Assembly (NCBI RefSeq): GCF_002943105.1
Contig: NZ_PTPZ01000003.1
Span: forward strand, 310,001-374,000
DNA: 64,000 bases
Reading direction: 5' to 3'
Source of the DNA: Cloacibacterium normanense
Lineage (GTDB): Bacteria; Bacteroidota; Bacteroidia; Flavobacteriales; Weeksellaceae
The notes beneath the pieces are model-generated. The model searched no databases, was not told where the DNA came from, and worked only from the letters and a program-made list of their open reading frames with translations. How positions within the stretch are numbered: position 1 is the first letter of the stretch; each line of letters opens with the position of its first letter. The position numbers and the translations under genes were made by a program. Shown here piece by piece: positions 3,172-28,524 of the stretch.

Positions 3172-4455
3172 ATGATTCAAAATTTAATCAAACTCTCCCT
3201 CCGCAACAGGTATTTCGTTTTGCTGATTGCAATCGGCCTTTTTATCTGGGGTATTTTTGCGGTAAGGGACAATCCCATCGATGCCATTCCGGATCTGAGT
3301 GAGAACCAGGTCATCGTTTTTACCGAGTGGATGGGCAGAAGTCCCCAGATTATTGAAGATCAGGTGACTTTTCCTCTGGTCAGTAACCTTCAGGGAATTC
3401 CGAAAATTAAGAACATCCGCGCCTCTTCCATGTTTGGGATGAGCTTCGTATATGTTATTTTCGAAGATAATGTGGATATATATTGGGCCAGAACCCGCGT
3501 AATGGAACGGCTCAATTATGCGCAGCGTTTACTCCCACAAGATGTCACCCCTACGCTCGGACCGGATGGCACCGGTGTTGGTCACGTTTTCTGGTACCAT
3601 TTTGATGCACCCAAAATGGATTTGGGAGACCAGCGCGCACTCCAGGACTGGTACGTGAAATTTGCCTTGCAGACGGTTCCCGGTGTCGCGGAAGTGGCAT
3701 CCTTTGGCGGCTTCGAAAAACAGTACCAGCTTATCGTAGATCCTGTAAAATTGCAGTATTACAACGTCTCCCTCATGGAGGTGATGAATAAGGTAAAGGC
3801 TAACAACAACGATGTAGGGGGACGGAAATTTGAGATGGCCGATATGGCCTACGTCATCCGTGGACTTGGTTACATTAAGAATGTAGCCGATATCGAAGAA
3901 ATCGCGGTGGGAAATTACAACGGTATTCCCGTGCGGGTGAAAGATATTGGCTCGGTACAAATGGGTGGAGATCTTCGGCTGGGTATTTTTGATGCGGACG
4001 GTGAAGGTGAAGTCGTGGGCGGTATCGTGGTGGCACGGTATGGCGAAAATGCGGATAAGGTCATCAACGATGTGAAAGAGAAAATGAAGGACGTTGAAAA
4101 AGGACTCCCTGAAGGCGTCACCTTCAAGACATCGTACGACCGCAGTACGCTGATTGAAGGGGCAATAGACAATATTAAAACCAAGCTGATTGAAGAAATT
4201 ATCGTGGTGGCAATCATTGTTATTCTGTTCCTATTCCATTGGCGAAGTGCATTGAGCATCATCATTCAGATTCCAGTCACCATTGCCATCAGTTTTATTC
4301 TGCTCAATGCGTTTGGACTTTCCTCCAATATCATGTCCCTTACAGGAATTGCGCTGGCAATTGGGGTGATCGTGGATAACGGAATTATCATGTCTGAAAA
4401 TGCATATAAAAATCTCTCCGATTGGCAGAACCATCAACAAAATAAAACCCCCTAA
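3172..4455 (+). CDS. cusA: CusA-type Cu/Ag RND pump, N-terminal half (split gene)
   Basis: These 427 residues match the first part of CusA/CzcA-family permeases: TM1, the first periplasmic porter part (SENQVIVFTEWMGRSPQIIE, then GPDGTGVGHVFWY), and TM2-TM4. The TM4 motif IALAIGVIVDNGIIMSENAY is the copper/silver (HME4) type, lacking the D-F-G of zinc/cobalt pumps. The frame stops at TAA 4453-4455 in the cytoplasmic loop after TM4, right behind a run of five Cs. The rest of the pump begins at 4458 in another frame. Adding one C to the run would join the two halves, giving about 1,080 residues, the usual CusA length. It may be a sequencing error, a frameshift mutation or a real two-chain pump. 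Confidence 0.85.
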   Translation: MIQNLIKLSLRNRYFVLLIAIGLFIWGIFAVRDNPIDAIPDLSENQVIVFTEWMGRSPQIIEDQVTFPLVSNLQGIPKIKNIRASSMFGMSFVYVIFEDNVDIYWARTRVMERLNYAQRLLPQDVTPTLGPDGTGVGHVFWYHFDAPKMDLGDQRALQDWYVKFALQTVPGVAEVASFGGFEKQYQLIVDPVKLQYYNVSLMEVMNKVKANNNDVGGRKFEMADMAYVIRGLGYIKNVADIEEIAVGNYNGIPVRVKDIGSVQMGGDLRLGIFDADGEGEVVGGIVVARYGENADKVINDVKEKMKDVEKGLPEGVTFKTSYDRSTLIEGAIDNIKTKLIEEIIVVAIIVILFLFHWRSALSIIIQIPVTIAISFILLNAFGLSSNIMSLTGIALAIGVIVDNGIIMSENAYKNLSDWQNHQQNKTP

Positions 4456-4457
4456 CA

Positions 4458-6416
4458 ATGAAGACCAACTGGTTTAAAAATATATTCAGAAAAAAAGAGA
4501 AGGAGAAAGACAGTTACGTTAAAATTCCCGAAGACATTCGGTTGAAGATTATCGAAAAATCATCCTTACAGGTATCCAGAGGCGTATTTTTTTCTACGGT
4601 AATCATCGTGGTTTCTTTTCTCCCGGTATTTATGTTGACCGGTCAGGAAGGTAAACTTTTTCATCCGCTGGCGTACACTAAAACATTCATCCTGATTGTT
4701 GATGCAATCCTGGTGCTTACCCTTGCCCCGGTGCTCATCTCCTTTTTCATGAAGGGAAAATTTAAGGACGATAATAAAAACCCAATAAACAGAGGCTTGG
4801 AACGGATTTACGAACCGCTGATAAGATGGTGCATGAAATGGAAAAAAACCACGCTGGGAATTAATATTTTGGCACTGCTCATCAGTATTCCAATGATAAT
4901 GAACCTTGGACGTGAGTTTATGCCGCCTTTGGATGAAGGATCCCTGCTCTTTATGCCGGTTACCCTTCCCGATATTTCAAACTCTGAAGCCAAAAGATTA
5001 CTGCAGGTACAGGATAAAATCATTAAGGGAATTCCGGAAGTGGATCATGTCCTCGGAAAAGCCGGAAGAGCCAACACGGCGACAGATAATTCACCCATCT
5101 CCATGATTGAAACCATTATTTTGTTGAAACCGCAAAGCGAATGGCGCGAGGGCAAAACAAAAGATGATCTCATCAATGAGCTGAATGCCAAACTGCAGAT
5201 TCCAGGCGTAACCAATGGCTGGACCATGCCGATTTCCAACCGAATCAATATGCTTTCAACCGGGATCAGAACGGATGTGGGCGTAAAAGTATACGGACAG
5301 AACCTGGACAGTATTGCCGTCCTTTCAGAAAAGATTAAAAAGGAACTCACAGGAATTGAAGGGATCAAGGACATGTATGTCGAACCGATTACCGGCGGAA
5401 AATATGTGGACATTCAAGTGAAACGCGAAGAAGTAGGAAGATACGGGCTAAGCGTGGATGATGTAAATGCAGTCGTAGAAAGTGCCCTTGGCGGAATGAA
5501 ACTAACCACCACCGTCGAAGGCCGACAGCGATTCTCGGTAAACGCCAGGTACGGCCAGGATTTCAGAAATAATCTGGAGTCACTGAGAAGACTGCCTATG
5601 CAGACCATGGAATTTGGTTCCATCCCACTGAGTGCAGTGGCGGACATCCGCCTTACAGAAGGTCCACCAATGATTAATTCTGAAAATGCCATGTTACGCG
5701 GAACTGTTCTGTTCAACGTCCGTGATCGGGATTTAGGCAGTACCGTAGCAGAAGCACAGAAAAAACTCAACAGCATGGTCACCAAAATGCCTAAAGGCTA
5801 TTTCGTGGAATGGAGCGGCCAGTATGAAAACCTGATTCGGGGTGAGCAGACCTTAAAAATGATTATGCCACTGGTATTGGTCGTGATTTTCCTCTCCATG
5901 TATTTTGCATTCAATTCTTACCGCGAAGCTTTTTTTAATCTCATCAGTATTCCTTTTGCATTAATCGGGGGCGTTTTTATGATTTCGATTTGGGGGGTGA
6001 ACCTTTCCGTAGCAGTAGCAGTAGGATTTATTGCCCTATTCGGACTTGCGGTGGAAACCGGAATCGTGATGGTCATCTACCTGAACGACGCCATGGTTCA
6101 GCTTATTGCAAAAAATGGCAACTCAAGGGAGACCATCACCAATGAAGAACTTCGTGAATATGTCATTCATGGTGCAGCCAAAAGATTAAGACCAAAGATT
6201 ATGACGGTTTGCGTGACCCTCTTCGGGCTTGTACCCATCCTGTGGAGCCACGGCGTGGGAAGTGATATGATGAAACCAATCGTATTGCCGATGGTTGGTG
6301 GTGTTTTCACTTCGGCCATTCACATCCTTTTGGTAACACCAATTATCTTTTATATGCAGAAGGAATGGGAACTGAACAAACTAGGGAAAATTGACGTCCT
6401 CGACGCTGCCCATTAA
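4458..6416 (+). CDS. cusA: CusA-type Cu/Ag RND pump, C-terminal half (split gene)
   Basis: The 652 residues begin in the cytoplasmic loop (FKNIFRKKEKEKD) and run through TM5 onward (FSTVIIVVSFLPVFMLTGQE), the second porter domain and the final TM bundle. Three methionines align with the metal-relay Met triad of E. coli CusA: LLFMPVTLPD, SPISMIETI and RINMLSTGIR. This supports Cu(I)/Ag(I) as substrate. The ATG at 4458 is two bases after the stop of the N-terminal half; upstream in this frame there is a stop at 4443, so any single-chain product requires a +1-type change in the C run at 4448-4452. If both chains are translated they could reassemble, since the break is in a non-membrane loop. Confidence 0.85.
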   Translation: MKTNWFKNIFRKKEKEKDSYVKIPEDIRLKIIEKSSLQVSRGVFFSTVIIVVSFLPVFMLTGQEGKLFHPLAYTKTFILIVDAILVLTLAPVLISFFMKGKFKDDNKNPINRGLERIYEPLIRWCMKWKKTTLGINILALLISIPMIMNLGREFMPPLDEGSLLFMPVTLPDISNSEAKRLLQVQDKIIKGIPEVDHVLGKAGRANTATDNSPISMIETIILLKPQSEWREGKTKDDLINELNAKLQIPGVTNGWTMPISNRINMLSTGIRTDVGVKVYGQNLDSIAVLSEKIKKELTGIEGIKDMYVEPITGGKYVDIQVKREEVGRYGLSVDDVNAVVESALGGMKLTTTVEGRQRFSVNARYGQDFRNNLESLRRLPMQTMEFGSIPLSAVADIRLTEGPPMINSENAMLRGTVLFNVRDRDLGSTVAEAQKKLNSMVTKMPKGYFVEWSGQYENLIRGEQTLKMIMPLVLVVIFLSMYFAFNSYREAFFNLISIPFALIGGVFMISIWGVNLSVAVAVGFIALFGLAVETGIVMVIYLNDAMVQLIAKNGNSRETITNEELREYVIHGAAKRLRPKIMTVCVTLFGLVPILWSHGVGSDMMKPIVLPMVGGVFTSAIHILLVTPIIFYMQKEWELNKLGKIDVLDAAH

Positions 6417-6434
6417 TCCTTAAATGATTACAAA

Positions 6435-7682
6435 ATGAAAAAATTAATAATAACAGCAGTACTGGCCTTCCTTTACACTACCATTGATGCTCAGCAAATG
6501 TCCCTGCCCGCAGTAATGGACAGTATCGCAGCCAACCATCCGGTGGTAAAAATGTACAATGCCGAAATCCGGTCAATGGATGCTGCCGCAAAAGGAGCAA
6601 GAAGCTGGATGCCTCCAACCGTAGGAGCAGGTTTCTTCATGACGCCCTATAATGCAAAACTCTGGCAGCGCGACGGCGATATGCTCGGCATGGGCTCAGT
6701 AGCAGTTTCGGTGGAACAGATGTTTCCTAACAGAAAGAAACTCAACGCCAACGAAAATCTGATGAAGGCAATGTCTGCTGTAGAAAAGGAAAAACTTTAT
6801 GCCGCCCTCAATGAAAACTTTCAGGATGCAAAAAAACTGTATTACAGTTCCATTGTCCTGGATAAAAAGCTGAAGGTCGTTAAGGAAAACGAAAAGATGC
6901 TGGACTTTATGATTAGAAACGCCGAAATCCGGTACAAAAACGGACTTTCCAAAATATCCGCCTATTACAAAGCCAAAGCGGCCCTCGGAAGTTCAAAAAA
7001 CATGCAGCTCATGTATGAGAATGACCTGCGCGTCAACCGCATCCGGTTGAATGCCCTCATGGGAAGAGACGCGTTCGCACCGCTGGAAATCCTGCCTGAG
7101 TACAACTTGAACGATTATTCCCTGAAGACCTTTGGTCAGGATCTTTTTGAGCAGAACAGAAGTGACTTGCGTGGCATCGACCGGGAAATTAATATTGCCA
7201 GACTCAAACAGGATCTGGAAAAGCAGAATCTAAAGCCGGAATTTGGCGTAAAGTTCGAAAACATGTTTGGTTTTGGTGGCCAGCCCATGCAGTTTTCTCT
7301 GATGCTGATGGCAAAACTGCCTTTCGTATCCTGGGCTTCAGGCATGAATAAAGCCAATATTGAAAGCCTGAAACTGAAAGAAGAAGCCTTGCAGGCACAG
7401 AAAGAAATGATGGTGAACGAATACAGCGGAATGGCCTACGGAATGCGCAATGAACTGGATCTGAATAAAAATCAGCTGAAACTCTATGAAGACACCATTA
7501 TTCCGGCCTTAAAAAACAACTACAAATCCATGCAGTTGGGCTATGAGCAGAATACGGAAGAACTCTTCATGTTATATGACGCATGGGAACAGCTGAATAT
7601 GGCCCAACTGGAATATTTCGAGATCCTTACCAAAGCACTGCAGACGCAAACTGAAATTGACCGCTTAATTGAAAGAAGATGA
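6435..7682 (+). CDS. cusC: TolC/CusC-family outer-membrane efflux factor
   Basis: A signal peptide ending in DAQ precedes a 415-residue protein with the long coiled-coil repeats of outer-membrane factors. It has no lipobox. The two repeats are seen as about residues 25-215 and 225-415, with alternating helices such as MDSIAANHPVVKMYNAEIRS and the late IERR end. Its place right after cusA and before two adaptors marks it as the trimeric exit duct of the copper RND pump. Its TGA overlaps the next ATG (ATGA at 7679-7682), so translation is probably coupled. Confidence 0.85.
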   Translation: MKKLIITAVLAFLYTTIDAQQMSLPAVMDSIAANHPVVKMYNAEIRSMDAAAKGARSWMPPTVGAGFFMTPYNAKLWQRDGDMLGMGSVAVSVEQMFPNRKKLNANENLMKAMSAVEKEKLYAALNENFQDAKKLYYSSIVLDKKLKVVKENEKMLDFMIRNAEIRYKNGLSKISAYYKAKAALGSSKNMQLMYENDLRVNRIRLNALMGRDAFAPLEILPEYNLNDYSLKTFGQDLFEQNRSDLRGIDREINIARLKQDLEKQNLKPEFGVKFENMFGFGGQPMQFSLMLMAKLPFVSWASGMNKANIESLKLKEEALQAQKEMMVNEYSGMAYGMRNELDLNKNQLKLYEDTIIPALKNNYKSMQLGYEQNTEELFMLYDAWEQLNMAQLEYFEILTKALQTQTEIDRLIERR

Positions 7683-19300: not shown

Positions 19301-20631
19301 TACAGAGGCCATTGGCAACAGTAGTAATTGGCGGTTTGGTAACAGCAACCTTCCTTACCTTATTTGTCTTACCCCTACTGTATATCATATTTAATTCTAA
19401 GAATCAAATCAAAAACAAATTGAGAAATAGTAAAAACACGTCGTTTGTAGCGCTGGTAATTTTACTGTGCTCTTCCGCAGGTGCACTTACTGCGCAGGAA
19501 AGAATTTCACCAAATGACGCGGTGAAAATAGCGCTGGAAAATAATCTGCAGTACTCGGTAAACAGTGCCCAGGTAAATAAAGCTTTACTGGAAACTAAAA
19601 CTGCACGTGAAATTCCCAAAACCGGCATCTTTGTAGAAAATGAGGATATGAGGCCTAGTGATCCCGACGGCGATTTTAAAATTGGAATCCAGCAATCCGT
19701 CCAGTGGCCGGGCTTATATAAGGCGAAAAGAAAGTATTTTGAGGAGCAGTTGAAATTTCACCAGCTGAATAAAAGCATGTTGGACGCAGTGATAAAAAGG
19801 GAAGTAAATACTGCTTTTTATCAGTTGTGGTACCTTCAGGATGTTGGTAAGCTCTACCAAAAACTTGATGAGTATTATACGTCCATGTACAAAGCAGCAA
19901 ATCTTCGTTTCAAAACCGGCGAAGCTGCTGGTCTCGAAAACATTGCTGCGGAGGCACGGATGAAAGAGCTCCAGGCTCAGAGACAGCAAAACGAACAGAA
20001 TATTTCGGCACAGCAGCAACAACTCAGTCTGTTTCTTAATAGTCAGGTGCTATACTTGCCGGAAGACACAAACTTGCAGAAATTGGATTTGGAAGATTTA
20101 CCATCAGACAGTTTTCATCCCTCATTGGCTCTGCAGCAGCAGAATATAGAAATAGCAAGGGCGAATATAGAGGTTCAGAAAATGCAGAACAAACCTGACT
20201 TTTCGGGAAGAATATTTTCCCAGAGATTATACGGAATGAAGGATCCCATAACAGGCTTTTCAGTAGCTGTAGAATTTCCCATTTTTGGAAAGACTGCTTA
20301 CAAAGCCAAATTGCAGTCTGCAGAAGCCGAGGTCGAAATTCAACAATCTCAGCTGCGCTATCAGGAAAATCAGTTCGCGGCACAAACCCGCTCCAGCTAT
20401 ACTGAAATTCTGAAAGCTGCTGAAATGCTTAAATATTATGAAAGTATAGGTTTGAAACAGGCAGACCAAATTTTCGATGCGGCAATGCTGAGTTACAAAG
20501 CTGGGGAAATAGGGTTTTCTGAAATGCACCAGTTTTTCACCCAAGCTATAGACATTAGAAAAAACTATTTGATTGCACTGAACGAATACAACATGGCAGT
20601 AATACAATATAACTACTATATTAAAAATTAA
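16303..20631 (+). CDS. czcA: CzcA-type Zn/Cd/Co RND pump fused to its TolC-like outer-membrane factor
   Basis: The first about 1,035 residues are a complete heavy-metal RND permease. Its TM4 motif AIDFGLIVDGAVIIVE carries the D-F-G...D-G-A...E pattern of HME1 (zinc/cobalt/cadmium) pumps, unlike the copper pump at 3172. After the last TM (VLPLLYIIFNS) a basic linker (KNKLRNSKN) leads into a second hydrophobic stretch, SFVALVILLCSSAGALTAQE (about 1047-1066), that looks like a signal peptide with an ALTA cleavage site. A TolC/CzcC-like domain of about 370 residues follows (ISPNDAVKIALENNL ... IQYNYYIKN). Such 1,440-residue fusions occur in Flavobacteriia. How an inner-membrane pump and an outer-membrane duct are made from one chain is unclear; cleavage at the internal signal is the simplest idea. 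Confidence 0.88.
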   Translation: MLYKIIQFSVKNKFIIGLMTFALILWGVYSATKLPLDAVPDITNNQVQIITSTPTLAAQETEQLVTFPIERSLANIPGITEMRSISRFGLSVITVVFDESVDVYFARQLITEKLKEAEENIPKGIGTPEMSPVSTGLGEIYQYVIHPKKGSENKYSPTDLRTMQDWVIARQLYGTPGVAEINSFGGKLKQYEVIINPYRLKAMNVSIADIFTTLEKNNQNTGGAYIDKKPNAYFIRGIGLISSLDDISNTVIKTVNGIPVLIKDVAEARIGSAVRYGALTYNGDKEAVGGIVMMLKGENSAEVVSRVKEKMLTIQKSLPADIIVEPFVDRSNLVDRAIRTIETNLVEGALIVVLVLVLFLGNLRAGLIVASAIPLSLLFALGMMNVFGVSANLMSLGAIDFGLIVDGAVIIVEATLHFLAVHHRSQKLSQHTMDQAVQSSAKKMMSSAAFGQIIILIVYLPILSLQGIEGKMFVPMAETVSFAIIGSLILSLTYIPMMSALFLSKNISTKKTFADRMMASVHNFYIPLLQKAIAFKYAVVGAAVALLAVSLFLFSRMGGEFIPQLQEGDFAVHCILPQGTSLSQSIETSMQASRILKSFPEVNTVVGKTGSAEVPTDPMPPEATDLIVTLKPKKEWRDSGKSYQDLSAEMMEKLKMIPGVFFEVSQPIQMKFNELMTGVRQDVAVKIFGENIDTLAKLAPEVAKVVQTVQGATEPQIEQTVGLPQITITYDRARLASYGLNIEDINHTVSTAFAGETAGVVFEDEKKFNLVARLDSVNRSSIEDVSNLFIPTANGVQIPLSQVAKVQFKEGPAQISREDGKRRIVVGFNVKDRDVESAVTEIQQKLNDANILPAGYYYTYGGTFENLKQASSRLQIAVPVALALIFLLLFFTFRNFKDSILIFTAIPMSAIGGVFALLIRDMPFSISAGVGFIALFGVAVLNGIVLVSTFKDLQKSGVNNIIRRVIQGTSIRLRPVLMTAAVASFGFFPMAFSNGSGAEVQRPLATVVIGGLVTATFLTLFVLPLLYIIFNSKNQIKNKLRNSKNTSFVALVILLCSSAGALTAQERISPNDAVKIALENNLQYSVNSAQVNKALLETKTAREIPKTGIFVENEDMRPSDPDGDFKIGIQQSVQWPGLYKAKRKYFEEQLKFHQLNKSMLDAVIKREVNTAFYQLWYLQDVGKLYQKLDEYYTSMYKAANLRFKTGEAAGLENIAAEARMKELQAQRQQNEQNISAQQQQLSLFLNSQVLYLPEDTNLQKLDLEDLPSDSFHPSLALQQQNIEIARANIEVQKMQNKPDFSGRIFSQRLYGMKDPITGFSVAVEFPIFGKTAYKAKLQSAEAEVEIQQSQLRYQENQFAAQTRSSYTEILKAAEMLKYYESIGLKQADQIFDAAMLSYKAGEIGFSEMHQFFTQAIDIRKNYLIALNEYNMAVIQYNYYIKN

Positions 20632-20652
20632 GGATCCAAAAGAGAATATAAC

Positions 20653-21888
20653 ATGAAAAAATATATCACCCTAATTTTTGCGGTCTCTGTCTTGTTGACA
20701 GGATGCAAAAAAGAATCAGAAGTCACTGAAACCAAAGAAGCAACTGCAGTAGAGAAGCCCGATGAGCACGAAGAACCTGGTGTGGCACATTTCACCGAAG
20801 AACAGATTAGGACAGTTGGAATTCAAATGGGAAGTATTGAAAGTAAGGAGCTTTCTAATACCATAAAAGTGAGCGGTATGCTCACGGTGCCGAATCAGAA
20901 TAAGGCATTTGTCACGCCCTCATACAGCGGTATAGTACGCTCCCTGTATGTACAACCTGGAAGTTATGTATCAAAGGGAAAAGTTATAGCAACCATTTCA
21001 AACCCCGATTTAATCGTGATGCAGCAGCAGCTTCAGCAGGTTAATGGTCAGATCAGAATGGCAGAACTGGAAGTTACCCGTGCCCAGCAGCTTTATAAAG
21101 GAAATGCTGCACCGTTAAAGAAATTTCAGCAGGCACAGACAGATCTTGCAACATTACGAAGCCAGCGCTCCGGACTGCAGAAACAGCTAGGCAGCATCGG
21201 TGCAGCTCAGGGTTACAGCTCGTCCCTTTCTGTTCGCGCGCCCATCAGCGGAACGGTAAGTAAAGTGATAGCGCAAATAGGGAGTAATGTGGACATGGCT
21301 TCGCCAATTGCCGAAATTGTAAGCAACTCAGCGCTTCATTTGGATATCTATGTATATGAAAAAGATCTGGGTAAAGTACAGCCAGGACAAACCATTCATT
21401 TTACACTTACCAACAGTCCAGGTAAAGAGTATGATGCAAAAATAACTTCAATAGGTACAGCCTTTGAAGGAGAAAGCAAAACTGTTCCTGTTCACGCACA
21501 AGTCGTCGGTGACCGATCAGGTCTTATTGATGGCATGAATGTTACCGCAGTCATAAGTCTTGATAAGCAAACTACTGCATCCGTTCCTACTGAAGCTATA
21601 GTTAATGATAAGGGACAGGATTTTATCTTTATAATGCAGTCCGATCATGATAAAGAAGAAAATAACGAAAAAGTATCAACTTCAACAAACGGAAATAACA
21701 AAAAAACAATTGTGGAAAAGGAAGTAGGTTTTGAAAAAATTCCTGTTGCTAAAGGGGTTACTGCTTTAGGCTACACACAAATTACACCTTTAAAACCAAT
21801 TCCTGCCGATGCTAAAATCGTAATTAAGAACGCCTTCTTTATCTTGGCTAAGTTAAATAATAAGGGAGAGGAAGGTGATGGTCATTAA
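20653..21888 (+). CDS. czcB: CzcB-type RND adaptor lipoprotein
   Basis: The lipoprotein signal (VLLTGC) is followed by an acidic/His segment (EHEEPGVAHFTEE) and a standard adaptor: lipoyl half-motifs (YSGIVRSLYVQPGSYVSKGK and VRAPISGTVSKVIAQIG), alpha-hairpin (about 125-180), beta-barrel and membrane-proximal domains. Unlike the two copper adaptors it lacks the YTCPMHP module, which supports a different metal. A charged, Asn/Lys/Glu-rich loop (HDKEENNEKVSTSTNGNNKK, about 332-352) interrupts the last domain. It lies 21 bases after the pump gene and would bridge the pump and its fused outer-membrane domain. Confidence 0.85.
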   Translation: MKKYITLIFAVSVLLTGCKKESEVTETKEATAVEKPDEHEEPGVAHFTEEQIRTVGIQMGSIESKELSNTIKVSGMLTVPNQNKAFVTPSYSGIVRSLYVQPGSYVSKGKVIATISNPDLIVMQQQLQQVNGQIRMAELEVTRAQQLYKGNAAPLKKFQQAQTDLATLRSQRSGLQKQLGSIGAAQGYSSSLSVRAPISGTVSKVIAQIGSNVDMASPIAEIVSNSALHLDIYVYEKDLGKVQPGQTIHFTLTNSPGKEYDAKITSIGTAFEGESKTVPVHAQVVGDRSGLIDGMNVTAVISLDKQTTASVPTEAIVNDKGQDFIFIMQSDHDKEENNEKVSTSTNGNNKKTIVEKEVGFEKIPVAKGVTALGYTQITPLKPIPADAKIVIKNAFFILAKLNNKGEEGDGH

Positions 21889-24084: not shown

Positions 24085-24519
24085 ATGGGAGATATTGTGC
24101 ATAAATAATGAGCCTCCAAAAAATCCCCGCTGCCACAGCAAGTAACATAATGACAATTATACGCACAGGCCAGCCGCTACAACGTTGCCCTCCATTCCGC
24201 ACGCCTGTGCTGAGCCTGCCGAAGTGCTTCATTACGTGCAAACCAGCACCATAGTGCCTATAATTGAAAATTATGTAAAATGCCTTCCTACATTCCACCA
24301 CCACAGGTGGTTCCATTTCCTACGCTTTGCAGCCGCTCGTGTAATTATAATTAAGAAGCTTCATCACAACCCAAAAACCTGCAAATCCCCGCCACCCTTT
24401 TATAGGAGTACAGAAAATGGTGTACAAGCTTTCTATTTGCCAGTACCTCCAGCAAACCACTGCCAAAAAAATCTTTATAAAAAGAAAAAGATTTTTTTGT
24501 CATTGGTCAGCTTCCAGTA

Positions 24520-24687
24520 CCGCGCACAGTAGTATTAGAGCTGAAAAAAATCACTTTTACCCTCCGCTATATTATCAGACGGCACAAAGCATAATAGTAG
24601 TCAAAGTCTTTTATATGGTCTATGCTCTGCGCCATCTGATAACGCCAACAAAAAGCAATTTTTTTCAGCTCTAATACCACTGTCTTT
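24520..24687. repeat. MITE-like long palindrome, 158 bp between arm ends
   Basis: The left arm from 24526 (ACAGTAGTATTAGAGCTGAA...) matches the inverted right arm ending at 24683 (ACAGTGGTATTAGAGCTGAA... on the minus strand) over about 30 bases with few mismatches. A second inner match follows, ATTATCAGACGGCACAAAGC against the inverted GTTATCAGATGGCGCAGAGC. It could fold into one long hairpin centred near 24604. Outer borders CCGCGCACAGT (24520-24530) and ACCACTGTCTTT (24676-24687) recur at the element 24897-24953. It encodes nothing, so it is a MITE- or REP-like element rather than an IS. Confidence 0.75.
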
Positions 24688-24896
24688 CCCTCCGCTTATC
24701 ACGGTCAGTTATATATTTACGTTTTTGCCTAGTTGATTTTTTCTACACCACCATTTTCTGCACGAAGTGTTTACCCCGTTTTTCCAGCACCATTCCCAAT
24801 TTCCACCGCTTCCCAAGTTCCTGCAGCCCATGTTCTGCATTCCCTTCACGGAAATAGGTCCGTTTCATTCCTGCCTCACATGCGCTGACTAAGGAA

Positions 24897-24953
24897 CCGC
24901 GCACAGTCGTGTGCTTTTCCCTCAACTAAGCCGAAGGGCACACCACTGTCTTT
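24897..24953. repeat. Short palindromic element with the same borders as the 24520 element
   Basis: It starts with CCGCGCACAGT and ends with ACCACTGTCTTT, exactly as the larger element does, but has a different 34-base interior. Its own arms CAGTCGTGTGC and GCACACCACTG pair with one mismatch. Confidence 0.65.
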
Positions 24954-25014
24954 GCCATTTCTTCCCATTGTAGAGATTTTGTATATTAGTATAAATTAAT
25001 AAATCAAATTTACC

Positions 25015-25542
25015 ATGATTGAAAATTCAGAACTTCAGAAAATAATCGATAATTTAGGATTATCTAAAAACGACTACCTCTTTTTGACCATTAAAACAGT
25101 TTACTTATATCACATGAAGTCTGGCGAAAAGAATGTGGAATACAGAGAACCTAGCGATTTTATTTTCACTCGTTTGTATGATAATTACTCAAAAAACAAG
25201 TTCTCAAAACCCAAAAATATTTCCCATATTTTATTCCAAGCGGGCTATAATCCAGATAGCCCTCGTATGCTCATTGAATTAAAAGGTTGGAACTATAAAG
25301 GAAAGAATACACCACAGAATGTAAACACTAAAGGGCATGTAATAGATGATTATTCTGTCAATCTTTTATTGGGAAACATTCTCTATGAAAATTTAGATAT
25401 GTCTAGAGAAAAAGAGTTTTCCAAAAAAGAAGAAAGAACAGTTGCCACCTCGAATAAATCCCCAAAATCTAAAGCAGTCTTACAATCAAAACTCTCTATT
25501 CGTAGATCCAAAATTAGCAACACCAGTAATAGAAAAAAATAA
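25015..25542 (+). CDS. Small protein with probable ASCH/PUA-like fold
   Basis: The N-terminal 125 residues contain TIKTVYLYHMKSGEKNVEYR, the L-x-I...I-x-S-G-x-K-x-x-E-Y-R pattern of ASCH domains (PUA-like RNA-binding fold). A beta-rich part (ISHILFQAGYNPDSPRMLIE) and LLGNILYEN follow. The last 45 residues are low-complexity and basic (Lys/Ser/Arg/Asn, ending SNRKK), as in nucleic-acid-binding tails. ASCH proteins are thought to bind RNA or modified nucleotides. The gene has no operon partner and uses AT-rich codons, unlike the metal genes to the left. The assignment rests on the motif alone. Confidence 0.55.
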   Translation: MIENSELQKIIDNLGLSKNDYLFLTIKTVYLYHMKSGEKNVEYREPSDFIFTRLYDNYSKNKFSKPKNISHILFQAGYNPDSPRMLIELKGWNYKGKNTPQNVNTKGHVIDDYSVNLLLGNILYENLDMSREKEFSKKEERTVATSNKSPKSKAVLQSKLSIRRSKISNTSNRKK

Positions 25543-25607
25543 AAAAAAAAGAAAGTAAAGGTATACGTCCGGGAAAAATGCGCTGACAATATCTAGCCCA
25601 TAAAGGG

Positions 25608-25665
25608 TTTTTTGAAAAAACTATGTGCGTGAAAAGCAAAAAACGCCCATACTTTTTTCAAAAAA
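25608..25665. repeat. Long intergenic hairpin
   Basis: TTTTTTGAAAAAACTATG (25608-25625) is inverted at 25648-25665 with one mismatch, and the stem extends inward through GTGCG/CGCCC. The total stem is about 22 bp with a loop of about 12 bases. The U-rich 3' arm could terminate transcription from 25015, or serve in a structured RNA. Confidence 0.6.
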
Positions 25666-25747
25666 ATATTGCATCGCATTTTCCCTCCTGTAGAATAGAA
25701 CACTTTCTTTTTTTTCCTTTTTTTTCTTTTAGAAATTTTCCTGCGAA

Positions 25748-25774
25748 GCATAACTTTTAAATCCCGAGTTATGC
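25748..25774 (+). promoter_or_regulatory. Hairpin covering the start codon of the DUF6943 gene
   Basis: GCATAACT (25748-25755) pairs perfectly with AGTTATGC (25767-25774), and the ATG at 25771-25773 lies in the second arm. In the mRNA this would bury the start codon in an 8-bp stem with an 11-base loop, so initiation could depend on unfolding. Confidence 0.45.
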
Positions 25775-26196
25775 AAAATTTCAAAGTACGTACATACGAT
25801 GTACAACAGGCAACGCCAAAAACCGCAATTTTTATTCTGAACCGTGGCAGAAATGCTGGAAAACCACTCCGCCAACCGTGCCCGAACTGCTTCATTATCT
25901 ACTGCAAAGACGAAAATGAAGTTGAAAACTACTACTGGACATTTTTTTCCCTCTGGAAATCTAAATTTTTTCACCGTTTTTTGTGTGGTTCTGTCATTGA
26001 TATGCTCAGAATTACTGATCTGAAAAAAATTCTTATTGAAAAAGTCCAACCAAACTTCGAAAATTTTGAGAAAAATGAAATCTTAATTGAAAGACTCAAA
26101 ACCGTTGAAAAATTGAATTCCGAATATTCCAGAAGAATCCAAGTTCTTCAAAAGCTAAGGTATCAATTGATCTATCACTTTTATTTTGTGAAATAA
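25771..26196 (+). CDS. DUF6943 family protein
   Basis: The 141-residue protein contains FILNRGRNAGKPLRQPCPNC, followed by FIIYCKDENE and the aromatic run YYWTFFSLWKSKFFHRFLCG. This is the signature of DUF6943, a Bacteroidetes family of unknown function often found in accessory regions. The CPNC pair could bind metal. The rest is helical and Lys/Glu-rich (TVEKLNSEYSRRIQVLQKLR). It converges on the minus-strand cassette, and a strong hairpin terminator sits between them. No enzyme activity can be assigned. Confidence 0.7.
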   Translation: MQNFKVRTYDVQQATPKTAIFILNRGRNAGKPLRQPCPNCFIIYCKDENEVENYYWTFFSLWKSKFFHRFLCGSVIDMLRITDLKKILIEKVQPNFENFEKNEILIERLKTVEKLNSEYSRRIQVLQKLRYQLIYHFYFVK

Positions 26197-26200
26197 GAAA

Positions 26201-26228
26201 AGCCTCTCCAACTCGGAGAGGCTCTTTT
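26201..26228. terminator. Strong terminator between DUF6943 and the minus-strand cassette
   Basis: AGCCTCTCC-AACTC-GGAGAGGCT (26201-26223) is a perfect 9-bp stem followed by TCTTTTTT. It ends the DUF6943 transcript. On the other strand the A-rich left flank gives a weaker U-run for the cassette. Confidence 0.85.
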
Positions 26229-26249
26229 TTATCCAAATAGTCACCACAA

Positions 26250-26441
26250 CTAAGGATTAGGTTTTTTTTTCATCATTTGGAGTAATCTCTTAACCAAAAG
26301 TGTTGCTACAAAACTCGATACACCACCCAAAAATCCAAGAATGATGGTCTTCAGAATATCTTCGGCTTGTAGGTTAACAAATATACTTAAAACCGTCCCA
26401 AATGCAGTGCTAAATTTTGTCGAGTTATCCACGTAATTCAT
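26250..26441 (-). CDS. Small membrane protein A of the MARQK cassette
   Basis: This 63-residue protein has one clear hydrophobic helix (KTIILGFLGGVSSFVATLLV, about residues 31-50) and a basic tail (KRLLQMMKKKPNP), so an N-out, C-in single-pass protein is likely. It is last in a minus-strand set with the next small membrane protein 41 bases upstream. Size, single helix and charged tail are holin-like, but no holin family can be named from sequence. Confidence 0.6.
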   Translation of the reverse strand: MNYVDNSTKFSTAFGTVLSIFVNLQAEDILKTIILGFLGGVSSFVATLLVKRLLQMMKKKPNP

Positions 26442-26482
26442 AGCAAATCAATATAAAATGAATACCCATCGACCAAAAAATG

Positions 26483-26695
26483 CTAATCATCACGATATAC
26501 TGCAGCTTGACTTACCGCCGAAGCAATGCCTCCAGCTACTGCCAAATATCCTGCTACACTCACCACCAAAGCTGGAAGCGAAACAGGAGCGGTCACAATA
26601 ACGCCACTTACAGCTGTTAAGGCTAAACCAATATTTCTAAGCTTGCGGAAAAACTTCGGCGTTGGTTCCTGAATTCTTTGCACTAATTTTTTCAT
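26483..26695 (-). CDS. Small membrane protein B of the MARQK cassette
   Basis: Seventy residues: a basic N-terminus (KKLVQRIQEPTPKFFRKLRN), then two hydrophobic stretches (IGLALTAVSGVIVTAPVSL and ALVVSVAGYLAVAGGIASAV) rich in Gly, Ala and Val, ending YRDD. A two-helix hairpin with its N-terminus in the cytoplasm fits a small pore former or holin. It starts one base after the stop of the DUF5675 gene on the same strand, so the two are very likely co-translated. Confidence 0.6.
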   Translation of the reverse strand: MKKLVQRIQEPTPKFFRKLRNIGLALTAVSGVIVTAPVSLPALVVSVAGYLAVAGGIASAVSQAAVYRDD

Positions 26696-26696
26696 A

Positions 26697-27101
26697 CTAT
26701 TTTATTTTTTTGGTAACAATGAGTTCTACTACAAAACCATTCTCTAAATAGGGGAAAACCAAATTTTTGAGCTTCTCAAAAGCTTTTCTCGATTCATTTC
26801 CTCTACCTTCTCCTGTAATTTGACTTACTGGAGCAATACAACCATTCAACTCCTTCAAAGCGTTATTGGCTGGATGTAAAAGAATGTATTTTCTATTTTT
26901 TACATTGATCAACTCCAAGTGCCACTTAAACTTTGCACTATAACGCTTTCGGATTTTGTATTTTCCCTCTGGAATACACGAAACTCGAGCTTTATTATTT
27001 CGCCAAGGCAATTCTATCGTTTTACAAATTTCTTTGCCGTTTAGACTTAAAAAGCCGTTCGTTCCTTCGGGAAAATACATCCTTTCCAATACGATTTCCA
27101 T
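26697..27101 (-). CDS. DUF5675 family protein
   Basis: The 134 residues show the DUF5675 pattern: CIPEGKYKIRKRYSAKF, WHLELINVKNRKYILLHPAN and LNGCIAPVS. Two conserved Cys, the W-x-L-x-x-V/I-x-x-R strand and the HPAN / GCI motifs are in the order seen in phage and contractile-injection loci, where the family is thought to act on or near the cell wall. The GCI motif recalls L,D-transpeptidase-like folds. No signal peptide is seen, so export would need a helper, such as the two neighbouring membrane proteins. It lies nine bases after the 252-residue gene's stop. Confidence 0.75.
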   Translation of the reverse strand: MEIVLERMYFPEGTNGFLSLNGKEICKTIELPWRNNKARVSCIPEGKYKIRKRYSAKFKWHLELINVKNRKYILLHPANNALKELNGCIAPVSQITGEGRGNESRKAFEKLKNLVFPYLENGFVVELIVTKKIK

Positions 27102-27109
27102 GTATTTTT

Positions 27110-27868
27110 TTACACTGGTGTATCAACTTTCACAATCGACAATGCGTTGAAAGCTCCATTTTTCAATGGGTATTTTTCTCCATTCACTTCTTGGAAGAAT
27201 TCTACTCCTAAAAACAAGAAGATGGGGTGAGGGCTATTTGGCGTTAATTCATTATCCAAAATGAATTCGTCCGTAGCCGTTTCATTCCACGCTTGAACTG
27301 GAGACTCATTCATCTGAGTTTCAAAAACACCATTTTCAAAATCCACTGCAGCTGCAGCTGTTACAATTTTGAAATGAGTAGTTCCCCCAGGAGCAGCAAT
27401 CATCACCGTTGGCGTAAAAGCTGGAATGTTCACTTGGCATAAACCACTGGTTCTGGTGATATCCACCGTTTTCGGTGCGAAAAGCGTGTTCCCCAACTTC
27501 CCATTGATATTGAAGTCAAAACCATCTAAAAGGATAGCTTCGCCATCAATCACGTTTCGAGCTCCTCTAGGGTTAGTTTGGTCCATTTGGATAACCTTAA
27601 CCATTTCTTTGGTTAATCTGCTGACCATTCTGGAATCAGAAGCTCTTAACAAAAGCGGACGTATAGCATTTCTGAGAACTTTCCCAGAATTTCCCGCTCT
27701 CCCGAATTCTGAACCATTTTCTCGGGTTCTCTGGAAGGTAGGGTCATTTTTAATTCTTTCCGCCGATACACCGCCTTTCTCTCTTGCGAGGTAGCCGTCT
27801 TTAGATTTGTAAAAGGTGATACCTCCAATGGTACCATCTAATTTGATAATACTTTTTTGTCTTGCCAT
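27110..27868 (-). CDS. MARQK-type 252-residue protein, cassette lead gene, function unknown
   Basis: The protein opens MARQKSIIKLDGTIGGITFY and continues KSKDGYLAREKGGVSAERIK, then NDPTFQRTRENGSEFGRAG. The layout (short G-x-I-G strand pair, Y-x-x-R, then a charged helix) recalls DUF6266-like proteins, but I cannot assign it firmly. The second half is beta-rich with no Cys motif (VNIPAFTPTVMIAAPGGTTH; LFLGVEFFQEVNGEKYPLKN). There is no signal peptide or membrane helix. Similar proteins are common in Bacteroidetes accessory DNA, as far as I recall beside DUF5675 and small membrane genes. Size and beta content would suit a structural (shell- or tail-like) subunit; that is speculation. Confidence 0.65.
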   Translation of the reverse strand: MARQKSIIKLDGTIGGITFYKSKDGYLAREKGGVSAERIKNDPTFQRTRENGSEFGRAGNSGKVLRNAIRPLLLRASDSRMVSRLTKEMVKVIQMDQTNPRGARNVIDGEAILLDGFDFNINGKLGNTLFAPKTVDITRTSGLCQVNIPAFTPTVMIAAPGGTTHFKIVTAAAAVDFENGVFETQMNESPVQAWNETATDEFILDNELTPNSPHPIFLFLGVEFFQEVNGEKYPLKNGAFNALSIVKVDTPV

Positions 27869-28144
27869 TTTTTTTACTTTTTACTAGATTTATTTTTCAG
27901 ATGATGAGGTTCACCTGTTCAAACCTTCGCGAATTCACATGACAAAATTTGAGAATTTATGCCCCCAAAACAAATATTAAAGCGGTTCTACCCATATTTA
28001 GCGGAAAACGATACTTTCAGTTGTAAACACAACTTTTAGCGGATTTAGAGCTTTTTATAACAATTAGTGTATTTAGAAAATAATTAAATTTGATATCAGT
28101 ATACCACACCTAAGTCAACTCCATATCAAAAGTATAGATAGTGT
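27869..28144. promoter_or_regulatory. Divergent control region between the MARQK cassette and the HTH-like gene
   Basis: On the plus strand TAAATTTG (28085-28092) fits the -7 box for the gene at 28145. On the minus strand TACTTTTG (28127-28134) fits a -7 box directed toward the cassette, about 260 bases ahead of it. Between the divergent genes are AGTTGT-aaac-ACAACT (28019-28034) and three AGCGG motifs starting at 27981, 28000 and 28038 (spacings 19 and 38). Overlapping divergent promoters beside a small DNA-binding-like protein suggest a switch. The long untranslated leader of the cassette is unusual. Confidence 0.45.
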
Positions 28145-28348
28145 ATGAAAAAAAGATTTTTTAGGCTGTGCATCTACCCAAAAGACGTAATGAAAATTAC
28201 AGGCAAAAGTGAAACCTATTCACGCACACTTCTCTCCAAAATTAAAGCCTCATTAAACAGACCTCCACACCAGTTCATCACCATAGAAGAATTCTGCCAA
28301 TACACTGGTCTAGAAATAGAAAAAGTACTAGAAATAATCACGGATTAG
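28145..28348 (+). CDS. Small HTH-like DNA-binding protein, divergent from the cassette
   Basis: The 67 residues MKKRFFRLCIYPKDVMKITG, SETYSRTLLSKIKASLNR and ITIEEFCQYTGLEIEKVLEI read as a basic strand followed by a helix-turn-helix-like core (DVMKITGKSETYSRTLLSKI) and a second helical pair. MerR/excisionase-like folds have this layout (short domain, helix naming the start of binding). It faces away from the cassette across 276 bases holding both promoters, so it is the natural candidate for its regulator. It could also be an excisionase, given the tRNA-like site 160 bases downstream. Confidence 0.65.
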   Translation: MKKRFFRLCIYPKDVMKITGKSETYSRTLLSKIKASLNRPPHQFITIEEFCQYTGLEIEKVLEIITD

Positions 28349-28506: not shown

Positions 28507-28524
28507 AGTCCCGTCCGGATCGCA
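28507..28524 (+). other. tRNA 3'-end remnant (tRNA-Asp type), probable attachment site
   Basis: AGTCCCGTCCGGATCGCA matches the end of the T-loop, the T-stem 3' strand and the acceptor 3' strand of a tRNA, most like Bacteroidetes tRNA-Asp (TTCGAGTCCCGTCCGGACCGCA, from memory). No 5' part of a tRNA precedes it: the bases before it are AT-rich with no complementary arms. A terminator follows. Such lone 3' ends mark one edge of elements integrated in tRNA genes; the intact tRNA should then lie at the other edge, left of this window. Confidence 0.55.

Follow-up and report, generated by a model that had tools for sequence, protein, structure and literature searches.

A 64,000-nucleotide stretch of the Cloacibacterium normanense genome (hereafter, the window) contains the right half of an integrated element of 55.9 kb, which ends in a tight group of genes encoding MARQK, DUF5675, two small membrane proteins (tm70 and tm63) and, divergently, the small DNA-binding-like protein HTH67. 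Judged from the sequence, this group is almost certainly the arm adjoining the right attachment site (attR) of a mobile element that integrates at tRNA genes and that belongs to a family widespread in Bacteroidota. An initial annotation had described the same genes as a compact, self-contained cassette. That description is contradicted by the layout of the element, whose integrase and replication-type genes are found on its other arm, outside the window.

Borders of the element and its insertion site

Where does the element begin and end? The whole insertion occupies C13:282,610-338,524; its left half lies outside the window and its right half corresponds to window positions 1-28524 on the plus strand. 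The ends carry identical 18-nt repeats, at C13:282,610-282,627 and C13:338,507-338,524. The right-hand copy, the attR core (window 28507-28524, plus strand), is AGTCCCGTCCGGATCGCA and reproduces the final 18 nt of tRNA-Asp(GTC). This match is above the chance expectation for the window and is the only attachment site (att) copy within it; the intact tRNA-Asp gene is located 55.9 kb upstream of attR, beyond the window. In the congener genome G039, the DNA corresponding to the right flank of the window begins directly after an intact tRNA-Asp (L172, 8705-8779), and the DNA 5' of that tRNA corresponds to C13:279,847-282,627 in the source genome, which ends in two tRNA-Asp genes. The insertion site is empty in three congener genomes (G039, G070, and G056). 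Thus, the identical 18-nt copies together with the matching G039 flanks show that the insertion spans 55.9 kb and that window 1-28524 is its right half. From this anatomy, it is nearly certain that the integrase inserts the element at tRNA 3' ends. Another candidate for the left end, a homology boundary at 24120, was ruled out because there is no tRNA copy at that position and the actual left att lies 55.9 kb from attR. What the boundary marks instead is a shared non-coding block (24120-25000) that is rich in large inverted repeats and is found in other elements, the boundary falling at 24119-24123 in several loci.

The association with tRNA genes, which the initial annotation had proposed to check, extends to related loci. 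Of 82 regions, 32 have the 3' end of a tRNA gene (Ser, Asp, Phe, Val, or Tyr) on the far side of HTH67 at a distance of no more than 700 nt, compared with 3 of 2000 control stretches, and the first of these counts is a lower bound because the tRNA library was small. A strict scan for repeats between the arms gave pairs in 51/114 HTH67-side regions and in 40/570 mononucleotide shuffles, with none in the window itself. At several loci an integrase gene is situated beyond HTH67, oriented as tandem insertion would predict, and HTH67 is within ~60 bp of an integrase in loci L134, L136, and L090. In the window the HTH67 gene (28145-28348, plus strand) adjoins attR. Its position beside att and integrase suggests that HTH67 is a directionality factor or a regulator.

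Just inside the left attachment site (attL) is a tyrosine integrase with the Pfam domains Arm-DNA-bind_5, Phage_int_SAM_5, and Phage_integrase. The left end also encodes RteC (Pfam, E=1.8e-75), an excisionase-like HTH_17 protein (PF12728), the replication-type protein REP310, and a DnaC-like helicase loader. REP310 has no Pfam match; its N-terminal part resembles the product of the gene that precedes a DNA replication gene in Polaribacter phage Freya. The earlier remark that no integrase is visible is therefore correct for the window and incorrect for the element, where the integrase sits at the far end. Neither capsid, tail, nor terminase genes were recognised among the open reading frames (ORFs) of the 55.9-kb element, which were compared with Pfam or, for a few hypothetical ones, assessed by eye. 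The same approach, applied to this element and to a second one in the same genome, recognised no relaxase or mating-pair (tra) genes in either, RteC being the only member of the CTnDOT-type set. There was also no Pfam match to a DUF3987/DUF5906-type primase, as in the PICMI model, and REP310 and the loader are found in its place.

The second element is inserted at tRNA-Ser(TGA), at C11:393,560-431,237 (37.7 kb). Its 17-nt core, AATCCCTCTTTCTCCGC, occurs exactly twice in the genome: at C11:393,560, in tRNA-Ser(TGA), and at 431,221, ~0.23 kb past another HTH67 gene. This element holds integrase, RteC, HTH_17-like, REP310, loader, and type I restriction-modification genes, in addition to the candidate defence protein PDC-S19, a UmuC-like gene (assigned by eye), D175, DUF6943, and the MARQK-DUF5675-tm70-tm63 module. 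The pairing of the two arms is also seen elsewhere. Of 27 full-length REP310 matches, 17 share their contig with a MARQK match less than 60 kb away, and in 17/17 the two genes face each other at distances of ~2-51 kb. At two loci, L041 and L046, tm63 directly adjoins the loader gene, so that the two arms form a compact unit. Two compact elements from different genera (L187 and L188) have similar cargo beyond RteC, namely DoxX-like, S9 peptidase-like, SusD-like, and SusC-like genes (by eye).

Marivirga plasmid p1 (L031, NZ_CP129969.1), deposited as a plasmid, is a circle of 25.3 kb. At 20264-20830 its HTH67 gene is joined to the integrase gene across GTGTCCA repeats around a tRNA-like core, in an attP-like arrangement, and on this basis p1 appears to be an element of this kind in its circular state. 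It belongs to another species, and its MARQK, DUF5675, and integrase genes are each split by broken frames.

The MARQK-DUF5675-tm70-tm63 operon

The operon is encoded on the minus strand and consists of MARQK (27110-27868; 252 residues, no known family), DUF5675 (26697-27101; 134 residues, PF18925 at E=1.8e-32), tm70 (26483-26695), and tm63 (26250-26441). An ORF listing confirmed the positions, strands, and gaps of 8, 1, and 41 bases that had first been described. HTH67 diverges from MARQK across an intergenic region (27869-28144) that is conserved among close relatives, and a DUF6943 gene (25771-26196, plus strand; PF22105 at E=2.7e-45) converges on the operon from the other side.

Are these genes a chance grouping? 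Using profiles built from the collected loci, the order MARQK-DUF5675-tm70-tm63 was found intact at 80 of the 111 loci with room for it, often with ATGA-type overlaps, which bears out the earlier statement that the same gene types co-occur in other Bacteroidota. HTH67 is divergent from MARQK within 800 bp at 83 loci, and DUF6943 is convergent within 6 kb of the module at 62. Between the window and the second copy in the same genome, nonsynonymous (dN) and synonymous (dS) divergence are 0.025 and 0.895 for MARQK, 0.076 and 0.499 for DUF5675, 0.033 and 0.59 for tm70, and 0.028 and 0.363 for tm63; dN/dS is below 0.2 in all four genes, indicating purifying selection. The recurring order across loci and the purifying selection on codons thus show that the grouping is not due to chance. 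A single scan of genome contigs yielded 529 MARQK-related stretches, of which 80 were kept; all of these are from Bacteroidota, including Flavobacterium, Chitinophagaceae, and Saprospiraceae. Of 197 genomes sampled from the family of the source organism, 112 contain a MARQK relative; some have distant paralogues only, and full cassettes are present in fewer. Searches of Pfam, NCBIfam, PHROGs, and PADLOC placed none of MARQK, tm70, tm63, and HTH67 in a family above noise; the one exception is HTH67, which weakly matches a Cox-like excisionase family (E=0.0024).

The predicted structure of MARQK (predicted local distance difference test score, pLDDT, of 86.3) comprises an N-terminal hairpin of low confidence, a helical middle, and a C-terminal sandwich of immunoglobulin (Ig)/C2-like type. 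In VIA structural comparisons, rows with Z ~6-7 cover only this common sandwich (residues ~125-252), with nothing on residues 1-124, and a PDB sequence search with the MARQK profile gave chance-level matches only. The initial annotation had proposed comparing the 252-residue protein with phage structural folds and had allowed for an ordinary enzyme; neither an enzyme nor any capsid, tail-tube, or sheath fold matched it significantly. The candidate role as capsid, tube, or sheath protein was rejected, since Foldseek returned nothing from PDB or BFVD at E<=0.001. MARQK is retained where lysis genes are missing; it may bind DNA or be associated with particles.

Membership of MARQK in DUF6266 (PF19781) was also rejected. 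The two are alike in being multicopy Bacteroidota proteins of similar length with a similar N-terminal look; however, they have no profile similarity (hhalign probability 0.1%), and MARQK has no Pfam match. At loci L192-L206, DUF6266 genes, of which a genome has several, lie next to HTH genes of excisionase-like type and once near DUF6943 (L192), and so may be part of a related, sister group of elements.

The predicted structure of DUF5675 (pLDDT 96.3) has the L,D-transpeptidase (YkuD) fold: the 46 top VIA rows all have this fold, at Z 5.9-9.9, and the next row is at 2.8. The best matches are Pgp2 (Z 9.9), DpaA (8.8), and Tlde1a (8.5), while Foldseek alone gave nothing at E<=0.001. The invariant residues His61, His76, and Cys88, and also Gly87, are each at least 98% conserved among 79 sequences, so that the catalytic-type His and Gly-Cys are present. 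DUF5675 thus resembles Pgp2, DpaA, and Tlde1a in predicted fold and in its invariant His and Cys, and differs from them in lacking a YkuD Pfam match, in being a small single domain, and in standing beside small membrane proteins here and often in phages.

DUF5675 is found in tailed phages, crAss-like phages, and one Microviridae genome, frequently beside genes for small membrane proteins; by analogy, this arrangement fits a lysis role. In the operon, tm70 and tm63 each have one strong membrane segment in a simple hydropathy scan, and tm70 has the conserved motif PTP..F....RN.GL. The viral contigs bearing DUF5675 hold no further gene of the right arm, except for a weak tm70-like protein in viral contig L255 (2337-2543; SPTPE motif, E=0.016), alongside DUF5675. 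This protein is a hint that the operon originated in phages.

Hairpin, cargo site, and other cargo

Upstream of DUF6943 lies a conserved hairpin of ~200 nt (25531-25730), ending in a pyrimidine tract, CTTTCTTTTTTTTCCTTTTTTTTCTTTT (25703-25730). The segment 25525-25740 folds far better than its shuffles (z -8.1 as RNA and -7.0 as DNA). The pyrimidine tract was found at 61 sites, 50 of them upstream of DUF6943 (median z -4.4) and 11 upstream of the unrelated DUF6876 (median z -3.4). Among 21 Flavobacterium-type homologues, compensatory double changes are found in 11 of 40 predicted pairs (e.g., A-U in 11 and U-A in 9), as read from one alignment in which two rows (L093 and L101) are poorly aligned; the apical loop is hypervariable. 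The compensatory changes and the better-than-shuffle folding indicate that the structure is conserved. No Rfam family came near its gathering score across 23.9-29.4 kb. Its candidate roles are an RNA leader, an origin of transfer (oriT), a replication origin, and a recombination site.

Between DUF6943 and tm63 is a cargo site, which is empty in the window (53 bp, 26197-26249) and holds 0.4-3.2 kb of exchanged genes in many relatives, mostly on the DUF6943 strand. Recognised or candidate anti-phage genes found there encode a NACHT-type protein (L095), REase-nSTAND3 PDC-S73 (L117), DUF4365 and Shedu SduA (L125), a DUF2326/ABC-3C set (L133), a Viperin-associated NERD protein (L142), and a relative of metallo-beta-lactamase-type defence proteins (L144). 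In L124 and L151 the site holds genes without a known defence role. Since the count has no matched control site, enrichment for defence genes is an impression rather than a statistic. Between L125 and L133, sequence identity is 97% on one side of the site and 93% on the other, and the cargo is wholly different. An IS3-looking transposon occupies the site in L037 (9193-10628), with a near-identical inverted copy at 5311-6739. The suggestion that the cassette might serve in defence applies to swappable cargo in relatives and not to a function of the cassette itself, the slot being empty here.

Other cargo lies between the two arms. The left-end genes are followed by type I restriction-modification genes and AbiD, and then by a sugar locus of SusCD type that includes GH31 and GH97 enzymes. 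Within the window, Pfam identifies a copper/silver/zinc-type resistance cargo at 2534-24057 (plus strand), with resistance-nodulation-division (RND) pumps, outer-membrane and fusion proteins, P-type ATPases, and a multicopper oxidase. One RND pump gene (3172-6416) is split into adjacent ORFs of 427 and 652 amino acids, which match two parts of one ACR_tran profile. Closer to the hairpin is the gene for the D175 protein (25015-25542, plus strand), a relative of phrog_625 that is present in both elements of this genome and missing from most others.

Proposed mode of spread and relation to known elements

How might the element move between cells? The inferred steps are, in falling confidence, excision, replication, the exit module, and spread by helper phage. 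The integrase, with the HTH_17 protein and/or HTH67, would excise a circle, which REP310 and the DnaC-like loader would likely replicate. tm70 and tm63 would open the inner membrane, and DUF5675 would then cut or edit the peptidoglycan; a lysis or exit role for the operon is somewhat favoured. The circle would travel in the particles of a helper phage, a proposal made because capsid, terminase, relaxase, and conjugation genes of its own were not recognised. In relatives, the defence genes would shield the host and keep out rival phages. That the element spreads as a phage satellite is plausible at slightly less than an even chance, and the whole chain, from mobile element through exit operon to helper-dependent spread, is evenly balanced. 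More tentatively, these may be Bacteroidota-wide satellite-like elements with their own wall-opening exit operon and a hairpin-flanked defence slot, in which immunity and metal or sugar cargo would be spread by helper-dependent lysis. The initial annotation had listed a lysis module and a minimal satellite among its options. Both survive, because the genes travel together at tRNA sites and phage DUF5675 is often next to small membrane-protein genes; neither does so as a stand-alone unit.

Several points weigh against the satellite-like scheme. Evidence of a helper phage is absent so far and none is known, and 56 kb is large for a satellite. No relative of MARQK, tm70, or HTH67 was found in phage records, nor of MARQK in IMG/VR, collections that favour viral hallmark genes. 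The adjacency of DUF5675 and membrane genes in phages was counted without a control, and the putative holin role of tm70 and tm63 derives from size, hydropathy, and analogy. Moreover, several Chitinophagaceae versions retain HTH67 and MARQK without DUF5675 and the membrane genes, with DUF6876 in place of DUF6943, and the exit operon is thus dispensable for the family.

A further point is that a conjugative reading is a serious rival. The element could be an integrative mobilizable element that borrows the relaxase of a co-resident conjugative element, with the hairpin as oriT and with RteC governing excision, which is its role in elements of the CTnDOT type, while the protein resembling an L,D-transpeptidase would help DNA through the wall. 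The strong RteC match speaks for this, as does the fact that the hairpin covaries and keeps a constant non-coding position 5' of either of two unrelated genes, and elements with an oriT and without a relaxase are already known (PMC11389934). However, neither element of this genome has a recognised relaxase or mating gene, and the phage-type replication pair and DUF5675 with its membrane genes are more phage-like than conjugative; we regard this account as rather unlikely. The absence of structural genes next to a phage-type integrase and replication-type and lysis-like genes would also be expected of a prophage remnant, now immobile, in which lysis, replication, and integration genes have outlived the structural ones. 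Strong purifying selection, gene order that is intact across genera, several copies per genome, exchange of cargo between near-identical flanks, and an apparent circular form make decay of this kind very improbable.

Could the operon instead act in competition or altruistic suicide, with the element as mere carrier? DUF5675 would then attack peptidoglycan in the manner of Tlde1, delivered or restrained by tm70 and tm63 and controlled by HTH67. Tlde1a is indeed among the top structural matches, and relatives have defence genes at the adjoining cargo site. This explanation has little to recommend it, since the module keeps its position beside attR in distant genera, unlike cargo; no secretion signal, immunity gene, or delivery gene was identified; and phage DUF5675 is not linked to secretion systems. 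Finally, the block of ~2.8 kb at 25.5-28.35 kb might itself be the mobile or functional unit, as its conservation as a block and the exchange at the adjoining cargo site could indicate. This is scarcely credible: the att repeats contradict it, the only att copy in the window being on the HTH67 side and its partner 55.9 kb away beside the integrase, with the same layout in the second element.

Relatives of MARQK, the marker gene, occur at >500 genomic places across Bacteroidota, yet the families of the module are nearly without literature: no papers were found on DUF6943 or DUF6876, and DUF5675 appears in two phage papers. Dependence on a helper, if real, would account for the spread of polysaccharide loci, metal resistance, restriction-modification, and defence systems in a phylum with few known satellites. 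With its fixed position between DUF6943 and tm63, the cargo site offers a new hunting ground for defence genes as yet unrecognised, and the att sites, integrase, hairpin, and exit operon are all open to direct testing.

Elements bounded by tRNA genes and carrying cargo, satellites, and elements without a relaxase are known (PMC10872708, PMC10803314, PMC11389934), and a Bacteroidota family of this make is apparently undescribed. A search of the openly accessible literature found no such element, and an earlier description elsewhere is possible. Among known systems, the NBU/IME-type elements and CTnDOT-type integrative and conjugative elements of Bacteroidota share with the present element a tyrosine integrase and RteC, whereas relaxase and mating genes are not recognised here. 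The phage satellites PICI and PICMI (PMC10803314) are similar in having an integrase, an excision regulator of HTH_17 type (PF12728), site-specific insertion, replication genes, anti-phage cargo, and no virion genes. In contrast to these, the element shows no DUF3987/DUF5906 primase, is much larger, has no known helper, and carries its own lysis-like operon.

Tycheposons are tRNA-bounded cargo elements of 4-200 kb with a complete tRNA at one border and a tyrosine recombinase (PMC10872708). The element resembles them in architecture: an intact tRNA at one end and a partial one at the other, a tyrosine recombinase, a length within that range, variable ecological cargo, and no obvious transfer genes. 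It differs from them in belonging to Bacteroidota, in its RteC, REP310, and DnaC-like loader, and in a right arm that combines the hairpin, DUF6943 or DUF6876, MARQK, HTH67, and the lysis-like operon.

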